The notes under the pieces: generated by a model | Databases searched by the model: none | Told to the model about the DNA's origin: nothing | What the model saw: only the letters and a program-made list of their open reading frames with translations | Made by a program: the position numbers and the translations under genes | Source: Actinomycetes bacterium | GTDB taxonomy: Bacteria > Actinomycetota > Actinomycetes > Prado026 | Direction of reading: 5' to 3' | Assembly (NCBI GenBank): GCA_036510875.1 | Contig: DATCDE010000029.1 | Coordinates: forward strand, 1-34,506 | Length of the DNA stretch: 34,506 nucleotides | Part shown: positions 8,211-10,408 of the stretch, piece after piece | Layout of the letters: each line of letters starts with the position of its first letter | How positions within the stretch are numbered: the first letter of the stretch is position 1

Positions 8211-8984
8211 TCAGAGCTGCCGGTCGGCCAGCACTGGGAACTCCGAGCGGGTCTTGGTGACCAGCGCCGGGTTGAGGTCGGCGACCAGGACCTGCTCGTC
8301 CTGGCCGGCCTCCGCCACCACGACGCCCCACGGGTCGACGACCACCGAGCCGCCGCCCATGGCCAGCCCGGCCTGCACCCCCGCGGTGTTGGTCGCCACG
8401 ACGTACGCCTGCTCCTCCACGGCTCGGGCCTGCGCGAGCAGCCGCCAGTGCGCGACCCGCAGCGCCGGCCAGGCCGCAGGGACCACGAAGGCCTGCGCCC
8501 CGCGGTCCAGCAGCGCGCGGAACATCTCCGGGAAGCGCAGGTCGTAGCAGGTCGCGAGGCCGACCGCGAGGCCGCCGATGTCCGCCACGACCAGGTCGGT
8601 CCCGGCGGTCATGAGCGCCGGCTCGCCCGCGCTGAACCCGAACAGGTGGATCTTCCGGTAGGTCGCCAGCAGGGCGCCGTCCGGCCCCACCAGCAGAGCG
8701 GTGTTGTACAGCCGTCCCTCGGCGTCCCGCTCGACGATGGAGCCGGCGTGCACGTGCGCGCCGATCGCGCGGGCCGCTGCCGAGGCCATCGCGAGGGTGG
8801 GGCCGTCGACCGGCTCCGCCTCGGCGGCCCACCGCTGGTAGGTGAACCCACCCTGCGGCCACAGCTCGGGCAGCACCACCAGGTCGGCCCCCGCCTGGGC
8901 CCGGAGCAGCGAGTCCACGTCGCCGCGCAGGTCGTGGGTCGGTCGCTCGTAGGACGGCGCCAGCTGGCACAGGTGCACGCGCAT
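8211..8984 (-). CDS. Carbon-nitrogen hydrolase (nitrilase superfamily amidase)
   Basis: A 257-residue cytoplasmic amidase of the nitrilase superfamily. The complete Glu-Lys-Cys triad is visible: Glu40 in VVLPELWPQG, Lys111 in ATYRKIHLFG and Cys146 in GLATCYDLRFPEMFR. The full family length is present, ending in DLNPALVTKTRSEFPVL. The closest pattern is the Nit2/omega-amidase and related group that cleaves small alpha-keto amides or deaminated glutathione, but substrate cannot be assigned. ATG 8984 is preceded by GGGAGGAT about 6 bp upstream on the coding strand. It is divergent from the rhodanese gene over 110 bp and converges on the M14 gene. Confidence 0.87.
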   Translation of the reverse strand: MRVHLCQLAPSYERPTHDLRGDVDSLLRAQAGADLVVLPELWPQGGFTYQRWAAEAEPVDGPTLAMASAAARAIGAHVHAGSIVERDAEGRLYNTALLVGPDGALLATYRKIHLFGFSAGEPALMTAGTDLVVADIGGLAVGLATCYDLRFPEMFRALLDRGAQAFVVPAAWPALRVAHWRLLAQARAVEEQAYVVATNTAGVQAGLAMGGGSVVVDPWGVVVAEAGQDEQVLVADLNPALVTKTRSEFPVLADRQL

Positions 8985-9058: not shown

Positions 9059-9086
9059 TTCGAAGGGATACCCCCGGGGGTATAGA
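9059..9086 (+). promoter_or_regulatory. Probable promoter of the rhodanese gene, near-leaderless
   Basis: TATAGA at 9081-9086 is a good -10 element, with TTCGAA at 9059-9064 as a weak -35 at 16-bp spacing. The -10 ends 8 bp before ATG 9095, so the transcript would begin at or next to the start codon. The operator palindrome at 9068-9083 occupies the spacer and the first bases of the -10. Confidence 0.5.
9068..9083. promoter_or_regulatory. CsoR/CstR-type operator palindrome
   Basis: ATACCCCCGGGGGTAT is a perfect 16-bp palindrome. Operators of CsoR-family repressors, including the persulfide sensor CstR that controls rhodanese genes in staphylococci, have the form ATACCCC-N-GGGGTAT. Position over the promoter of a rhodanese gene fits repression relieved by copper or, more likely here, by reactive sulfur. 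No csoR/cstR gene lies in the window. Confidence 0.65.
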
Positions 9087-9094
9087 GTGAGGTC

Positions 9095-9544
9095 ATGAGA
9101 CTCTCCCGTCGCGCCGCCATGACTGCCTCCGGGGCCGCCCTCTCGCTCGCGCTGCTCGGCCCGCTGGCCGCCTGCAGCAGCTCGACGAGCAGCAGCACGG
9201 CCGCCACTCCGGTCCAGGAGACGCAGGCGATCACCAAAGTGGACCCGGCCACCGCCGACTCCCTCGTGAAGCAGGGCGTCACCGTCCTCGACGTGCGCAC
9301 CCCCGAGGAGTTCGCAACCGGCCACATCACCGGCGCGGTGAACGTCAACTGGGAGGGCACCGACTTCGCCACCCAGGTCAAGCAGCTCGACCCGGCCAAG
9401 CCGGTGCTCGTCTACTGCCACAGCGGCAACCGCAGCGGCCAGGCCGTCCAGGTGATGGAACAGGAGGGCTTCCAGCGGATCTTCGACCTCGCTGGCGGCG
9501 TCCTCGCCTGGAACGCGGCCGGACAACCCCTGACCACAAGCTGA
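9095..9544 (+). CDS. Rhodanese-domain lipoprotein
   Basis: A 149-residue exported single-domain rhodanese. Residues 1-27 are a lipoprotein signal (MRLSRRAAM, hydrophobic core, lipobox LAAC with Cys27), followed by a Ser/Thr linker and a rhodanese fold with VTVLDVRTPEEFATGHI and the active-site loop VYCHSGNRSGQA, where Cys108 would carry the persulfide. The last segment DLAGGVLAWNAAGQPL is typical. It would act at the outer face of the membrane in sulfane-sulfur transfer or detoxification. Start at ATG 9095 gives a full n-region; ATG 9119 would remove its arginines. The overlapping operator suggests regulation by a CsoR-family protein. Confidence 0.87.
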   Translation: MRLSRRAAMTASGAALSLALLGPLAACSSSTSSSTAATPVQETQAITKVDPATADSLVKQGVTVLDVRTPEEFATGHITGAVNVNWEGTDFATQVKQLDPAKPVLVYCHSGNRSGQAVQVMEQEGFQRIFDLAGGVLAWNAAGQPLTTS

Positions 9545-9589: not shown

Positions 9590-10408
9590 GTGACGGGGCC
9601 GGACGACGCCCAGGCGACAGGGTACGACGGGTACCGGGACGCCCTGCGGGACTTCGTCGCCTTGATCGGCGAGCTGCGCGCCGAGGACTGGGCGCTGCCG
9701 ACCGACCTGCCCGGGTGGACCGTGCAGGACAACGTCAGCCACGTGATCGGATTGGAGTCCGACCTGCTCGGGCGCCCGCTGCCCGACCACCTGCCGGACT
9801 GGGACCGGCTCCCGCACGTGCGCGACCACCTCGGGCGGTTCATGGAGGTGGCCGTCGACGTGCGGCGCGCCGCCACCCCCGAGCAGCTGCTGGCCGAGCT
9901 CCGGGAGGTCGTCGCCGAGCGGATCCGGGCCCTCGAACAGGGCCAGGCCCGCGCGGAGGATGCGGCCGCGACCGGCTACTTCCGCGACGTCGACCGGATG
10001 CTGGCGATCCGGCCGTTCGACATCTGGGCCCACGAGCAGGACATCCGCCGCGCGACCGCGCGGCCCGGCAACCTCGACTCGACCGGCGCCCGGGCGGCCC
10101 GGCGGCAGATCCTCGCTGCGCTCCCGATGGTGATCGGCAGTCGGGTCCGACCCGAGCCGGGCACCCGTGTGGTCTGGGACGTCGAGGGCCCGCTGTCCCT
10201 CCACGCCGGGGTGGCCATGAGCCGCAGCGGCCAGGCGGTCAGCGACGACCCCGAGGCCCCCGGCCCCACCGTGCTGATCCGGCTCGGCTGGGAGGACTTC
10301 GTCATGCTGGCCTGCGGCCGGCGTCTCCCCGCGGCGTGCACCGTCGAGGTCGAGGGCGACGCCGGACTGGCCGAACGCGTCCTGGCGGCCATGGCCATCA
10401 CCCCCTGA
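9590..10408 (+). CDS. Maleylpyruvate isomerase family (mycothiol-dependent, DinB-like) protein
   Basis: A 272-residue protein of the TIGR03083/MDMPI family common in mycothiol-making actinobacteria. The N-terminal four-helix DinB-like domain has LPGWTVQDNVSHVIGLE with His51 and PFDIWAHEQDIRRA with His148, which fit the metal-binding His residues of mycothiol-dependent maleylpyruvate isomerase. The C-terminal part (RVVWDVEGPLSLH onward) matches the MDMPI C-terminal domain with a sterol-carrier-like fold. Most members act as mycothiol S-transferases of unknown substrate; nothing here shows aromatic-ring degradation next to it, so a specific isomerase role is not claimed. GTG 9590 is used as a probable leaderless start. 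Confidence 0.8.
   Translation: MTGPDDAQATGYDGYRDALRDFVALIGELRAEDWALPTDLPGWTVQDNVSHVIGLESDLLGRPLPDHLPDWDRLPHVRDHLGRFMEVAVDVRRAATPEQLLAELREVVAERIRALEQGQARAEDAAATGYFRDVDRMLAIRPFDIWAHEQDIRRATARPGNLDSTGARAARRQILAALPMVIGSRVRPEPGTRVVWDVEGPLSLHAGVAMSRSGQAVSDDPEAPGPTVLIRLGWEDFVMLACGRRLPAACTVEVEGDAGLAERVLAAMAITP

Follow-up and report, generated by a model that had tools for sequence, protein, structure and literature searches.

The perfect 16-bp palindrome ATACCCCCGGGGGTAT, at positions 9068-9083 of the window (the whole stretch of 34,506 nucleotides analysed here), is very probably the operator of a CstR-type repressor encoded on contig C20 of the same genome, and sulfane sulfur would relieve repression of the gene behind it, which encodes a predicted lipid-anchored extracytoplasmic rhodanese, together with that of a wider regulon. 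The site, its conservation, two regulators, a spacer rule and the contents of the regulon were observed here; repression and its release by sulfane sulfur are taken from published work on ScCsoR (PMC7533328) and CstR (PMC5480029).

The palindrome and the CsoR-family regulators

ATACCCCCGGGGGTAT ends 11 bp 5′ of the rhodanese ATG (position 9095). The preliminary description had reported a perfect 16-bp palindrome touching the hexamer TATAGA at this distance from the start codon, and the bases at 9068-9083 agree. We annotate it, without strand, as an N4-type (CstR-type) operator on the basis of sequence, shuffles, conservation and spacer class. ATACCCNNNNGGGTAT is found at a single place in the window and in none of 100 dinucleotide shuffles. 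The genome scan for the palindrome and for csoR/cstR genes, proposed as a check in that description, gave 14 TACCC-N4-GGGTA sites and two CsoR-family genes in the own genome (G000; 4.05 Mb, 377 contigs), versus 0 sites for a reversed-pattern control. Base composition predicts 3.2 such sites per genome and 0.06 of the 16-bp form with A/T ends; 6 of the 14 are of this latter form, so several of the remaining eight are probably background. Some of the 14 fall within coding sequence.

The reading had been made to depend on the presence of a CsoR-family gene, and the two that are present differ in kind. The protein of contig C90 displays a Cys-His-Cys set and its gene is followed by CopZ-like then CopA-like genes; this is the copper sensor. 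That of C20 has the same two cysteines with glycine replacing histidine (Cys-Gly-Cys), thus a cysteine pair devoid of the copper-ligand histidine, and is on these grounds a CstR-type sensor. Its neighbours encode an OsmC-like protein, an MBL-fold/rhodanese persulfide dioxygenase (PDO) fusion, a small rhodanese and a TauE-type exporter, the labels PDO, TauE and CopZ/CopA being our own reading of the sequences. The 14-bp core of the window site, TACCCCCGGGGGTA, recurs exactly and directly 5′ of the C20 cstR gene, and ATACCCCCCGGGGTAT stands 5′ of the rhodanese-PDO operon. The window site matches the ATACC-N6-GGTAT palindrome with G-tracts of CstR / ScCsoR-type operators, and this genome has the same site again in front of cstR itself and of a persulfide-oxidation operon. 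The CsoR/CstR operator first proposed holds in its persulfide (CstR) form, not in its copper form.

Spacer length separates copper-type from CstR-type sites

CsoR-family genes were collected from 43 class genomes and the own one, and TACCC-N3 to N6-GGGTA was sought within 400 bp upstream; a weak match (G115:C12) was dropped from the search results and one duplicate place (L167 = L121) removed from the count. Copper-type genes had an upstream site in 17 of 25 cases (20 sites, all TACCC-N5-GGGTA) and CstR-type genes, which lack the histidine, in 24 of 36 (25 sites, all TACCC-N4-GGGTA), while no site was found in this interval for 8 and 12 genes, respectively. Among the 41 genes with a site, spacer and regulator type thus segregate 17/0 versus 0/24 (P 7e-12, related genomes not being independent). 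The own copper csoR site on C90 is N5 and the window site N4, so that the latter would belong with the persulfide branch. Gene content follows the same division: CopZ and CopA are present in 5 of 10 N5 loci, and neither is present in any of 40 N4 loci; in all, seven genomes were scanned for N5 and 11 for N4.

In published work, the copper consensus of streptomycetes carries a spacer of five bases (PMC3902906), the ATACCn6GGTAT of the S. coelicolor persulfide site corresponds to N4 (PMC7533328), and for a Thermus relative one spacer base more or less weakens binding 10- to 15-fold (PMC10318464), which by analogy fits such a spacer code. The open-access literature searched, mostly as abstracts, gave no account of spacer length as a discriminator between copper and persulfide; we claim no priority on spacing. 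In these genomes the rule can be applied by eye, TACCC-N4-GGGTA meaning persulfide control and TACCC-N5-GGGTA copper control, and it lets regulons with unannotated members be read off.

The lipoprotein rhodanese

The gene behind the operator (9095-9544, + strand) encodes 149 residues with a rhodanese domain (PF00581, E 2.6e-21) and an active-site loop CHSGNRS containing Cys108 (9416-9436, +), also supported by comparison of loci. Its N-terminus displays twin arginines and a lipobox LAAC (residues 24-27; 9164-9175, +), with Cys27 as the predicted lipidated residue. Signal peptide and lipobox cysteine are those of a bacterial lipoprotein, lipidation being predicted, and the strict lipobox found in 25 of 29 loci checked supports the exported lipoprotein of the preliminary description. 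A single-sequence AlphaFold model was poor (pLDDT 46.9) and was left out of the analysis. PspE of E. coli is under phage-shock control. It is likewise an exported single-domain rhodanese, and its chain 2jtq was matched, but it is a soluble periplasmic protein (PMC2593051), whereas the window protein is a predicted lipoprotein.

The gene is flanked by a divergent carbon-nitrogen hydrolase (8211-8984, − strand), a conserved neighbour identified by its ORF, domain match and relatives, and by a mycothiol-isomerase-like protein (9590-10408, +). Hydrolase-like genes also lie near the lipoprotein gene in G002 and in several loci of family f34.

Conservation of the operator across the class

Family and order searches reached three genomes each, and the class (393 genomes) was used instead. 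Of these genomes 29, the own included, have a relative of the lipoprotein with an E value no worse than 1e-22; a scan of named genomes gave only three distant matches, two of them from Flavobacteriia-type records. TACCC-N4-GGGTA lies within 700 bp upstream in 24 of 30 lipoprotein loci, each time with full ATA/TAT ends, and without the two own loci the figure is 23 of 28; elsewhere in the 30 loci, over 76,648 bp, there is a single N4 site. The five loci devoid of an upstream site are L066, where the rhodanese gene comes after a PDO gene, L076, a TlpA-rhodanese fusion after CcdA, L081, whose open frame runs on from the upstream gene, L071 and L080. The genome of L080 (G165) carries the lipoprotein and a CstR-like gene and shows no N4 site with A/T ends genome-wide.

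Five loci (L083, L085, L088, L089 and L090) share an arrangement in which cstR stands behind the operator and the lipoprotein gene comes immediately after cstR, with a CoA-disulfide-reductase-like gene next; in two of them, L085 and L089, a mini-protein gene (see below) stands first behind the operator. Of 28 lipoprotein genomes, 26 have a CstR-type gene, versus 4 of 15 others, these 15 having been taken from the top of the listing rather than at random. G146 and G228 carry the lipoprotein, and no CsoR-family gene was detected in them.

The candidate promoter around the operator

The candidate −10 element TATAGA (9081-9086, +) overlaps the operator arm by its first three bases, TAT, and matches the consensus at four of six positions. 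The alternative TAGAGT (9083-9088, +), six bases before the ATG, is equally possible and would place the transcript start on the A of the ATG. Further upstream, the weak −35-like TTCGAA (9059-9064, +) has three of six consensus bases and is absent from the output of a sigma-70 promoter scan, which reported no promoter at the window site. The position of the palindrome would fit an overlap with the promoter previously described; its hexamers are weak, and none was called by the scan. Comparison brings some support: in a comparison of 44 N4 sites from nine genomes, the trinucleotide following the palindrome completes a TATNNT on 31 of 45 sides that face a gene, versus 12 of 40 other sides (P 5e-4); three sides having the start codon inside the operator were set aside, and gene sides were assigned after the clusters had been seen. 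The window hexamer, unlike TATNNT, does not end in T. This trend supports, rather than proves, that one operator arm may double as −10 element.

The copper csoR gene on C90 also looks leaderless, with TATATT-GGGGTC-ATG directly after its N5 operator (L018:6426-6459), and the six-base spacing to the ATG is common to this TATATT and to TAGAGT in the window. In L067-L070, L073, L082 and L087, f34 genomes among them, the operator overlaps the apparent lipoprotein ATG, i.e. sits at the translation start.

Alternative readings

The copper-sensing CsoR of C90, which would make the rhodanese a copper-stress gene, belongs to the same protein family and has similar half-sites, and several relatives of family f34 (such as L067-L070, L082, L087) carry upstream of the lipoprotein gene what looks by eye like a CopD/CtaG-type copper gene. 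Against this, all 20 sites of copper-type regulators have the five-base spacer, that of the own csoR included, while the window site has four bases, the 40 N4 loci contain neither CopZ nor CopA, and the gene under the site encodes a rhodanese. Spacer length and gene content led us to rule out copper CsoR as its regulator, a reading we consider highly unlikely. Only slightly better placed, and still very unlikely, is a real operator whose main target would be the divergent hydrolase, or which would serve both genes equally. G002 keeps the divergent arrangement with the site in between, and the f34 loci with hydrolase-like genes near the lipoprotein gene go in the same direction; yet the left-facing hexamer is TATCCC, the hydrolase ATG lies 83 bp from the palindrome versus 11 bp for that of the rhodanese, and in most relatives the site faces the rhodanese or cstR. 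Operator control of the hydrolase was considered and is not claimed.

That the palindrome arose by chance in G+C-rich DNA is scarcely credible. Base composition does predict about three TACCC-N4-GGGTA per genome and some own sites are coding, but the shuffles gave none, the reversed control had no occurrence in any of the genomes scanned for N4, and the site is conserved in place among lipoprotein relatives; chance was rejected on the shuffles and this conserved position. We retain the palindrome as a very probable CstR-type operator.

A wider N4 regulon and a six-cysteine mini-protein

Directly behind N4 sites, rhodaneses, CstR, thioredoxin, DUF302, CcdA, CoADR-/SQR-like flavoproteins and a TDT-type transporter recur, some of the last labels (CcdA, CoADR-/SQR-like, TDT-type) having been given by eye. 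The sites on C19, C49, C135, C141 and C234 were left out of the inventory as coding, contig-end or otherwise background, while that on C147, at the end of an ORF, was kept and has no conserved neighbour. The own trxB site (C269) would be a doubtful member because it overlaps a SigR-like GGAAT-N18-GTT, which we take to resemble the SigR promoter consensus; in L168 an N4 site also stands 5′ of a trxB-like gene. C330 carries two N4-type sites, a perfect one and one with a mismatch, flanked by a rhodanese/TauE operon on one side and a CcdA-like gene on the other. Downstream of the latter (L046, L062) comes a TlpA-rhodanese protein, these frames being broken in the own assembly; found after a CcdA-like gene in both L076 and C330, this protein may form part of an extracytoplasmic redox-rhodanese system. 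A family of membrane proteins with a GCPVCNK motif, four members, is also seen behind N4 sites (L051:3263-3916, i.e. G000:C177; L125, L128, L173, L072), the own copy having no Pfam match.

A 38-residue mini-protein, at L048:3085-3201 (G000:C325, about 10084) and in L179-L211, often comes directly behind an N4 operator, ten copies doing so. Its consensus is MCxxxxCxxCxKxTWxGCGxH...RCxC, with C2, C7, C10, C18, H21 and C35 invariant in 12 sequences and C37 nearly so. The protein has relatives in 118 of 296 class genomes. Of the 32 genes taken from the loci with the best scores, 24 lie within 150 bp of an N4 site, one has an N5 site and seven have neither, whereas a deeper sample (20 further stretches) showed the N4 link in 7 of 22, so that the link weakens in distant members. 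The model (pLDDT 86.8) is a hairpin with a short helix, and its comparison with the PDB gave no match at E 0.001, the best hits, which include CW zinc-finger domains, being at chance level. Our guess is a zinc-thiolate or persulfide-carrying role. The two sequences scanned had no match in Pfam or NCBIfam; the family is directly testable.

Relation to known switches

Operator type and regulator are those of a known kind of switch. ScCsoR of S. coelicolor recognizes ATACCn6GGTAT and controls its own gene as well as PDO, a rhodanese and TauE; one of its sites lies near a transcript start 12 bp before the start codon (PMC7533328). Operator, two-cysteine CsoR-family repressor and PDO/rhodanese/TauE/self targets are the same here; that circuit differs in being described as four genes in one cluster, and the accessible description includes no exported lipoprotein, thioredoxin, CcdA or mini-protein (PMC7533328). 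CstR of S. aureus is also a cysteine-pair persulfide sensor and represses sulfide-oxidation genes, with tauE in its regulon, but is reported to control probably a single operon directly (PMC5480029), whereas the sites found here are scattered across many contigs, that of the exported lipoprotein gene among them. The copper CsoR of S. lividans is a related repressor with TAC/GTA half-sites around G-tracts and differs by its five-base spacer and its copper targets copZA and csoR (PMC3902906). New to us are the conserved exported branch, the dispersed regulon (thioredoxin, CcdA, DUF302) and the six-cysteine mini-protein behind the operator; no account of a CstR-controlled exported rhodanese was found in the open-access literature searched, mostly as abstracts.

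At low sulfane sulfur, reduced CstR would occupy 9068-9083, over the core promoter, presumably blocking polymerase and keeping transcription off. Persulfide or polysulfide would modify its cysteine pair and the repressor would release the operator, as for ScCsoR, allowing a leaderless or near-leaderless transcript, as we infer it, and production of the lipid-anchored rhodanese outside the membrane. Cytosolic rhodaneses, persulfide dioxygenase, sulfite exporters, thioredoxin and others would be co-induced. On the membrane's outer face the lipoprotein would take sulfane sulfur, presumably from extracytoplasmic persulfide or polysulfide, and a CcdA-to-TlpA electron path could recharge an extracytoplasmic rhodanese.

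We give about even weight to a broader reading, in which Actinobacteria possess a dispersed, N4-marked persulfide regulon with an extracytoplasmic arm, the mini-protein of about 38 residues, six cysteines and one histidine is its most recurrent co-regulated partner, and one spacer base separates copper from sulfur regulation. Within it, the arm would consist of the lipid-anchored rhodanese, in some cases with the CcdA + TlpA-rhodanese pair, and the mini-protein would perhaps be a sulfane-sulfur carrier or a zinc-thiolate buffer. Our results suggest that persulfide defence has, as one of its conserved components, the handling of sulfane sulfur beyond the membrane.
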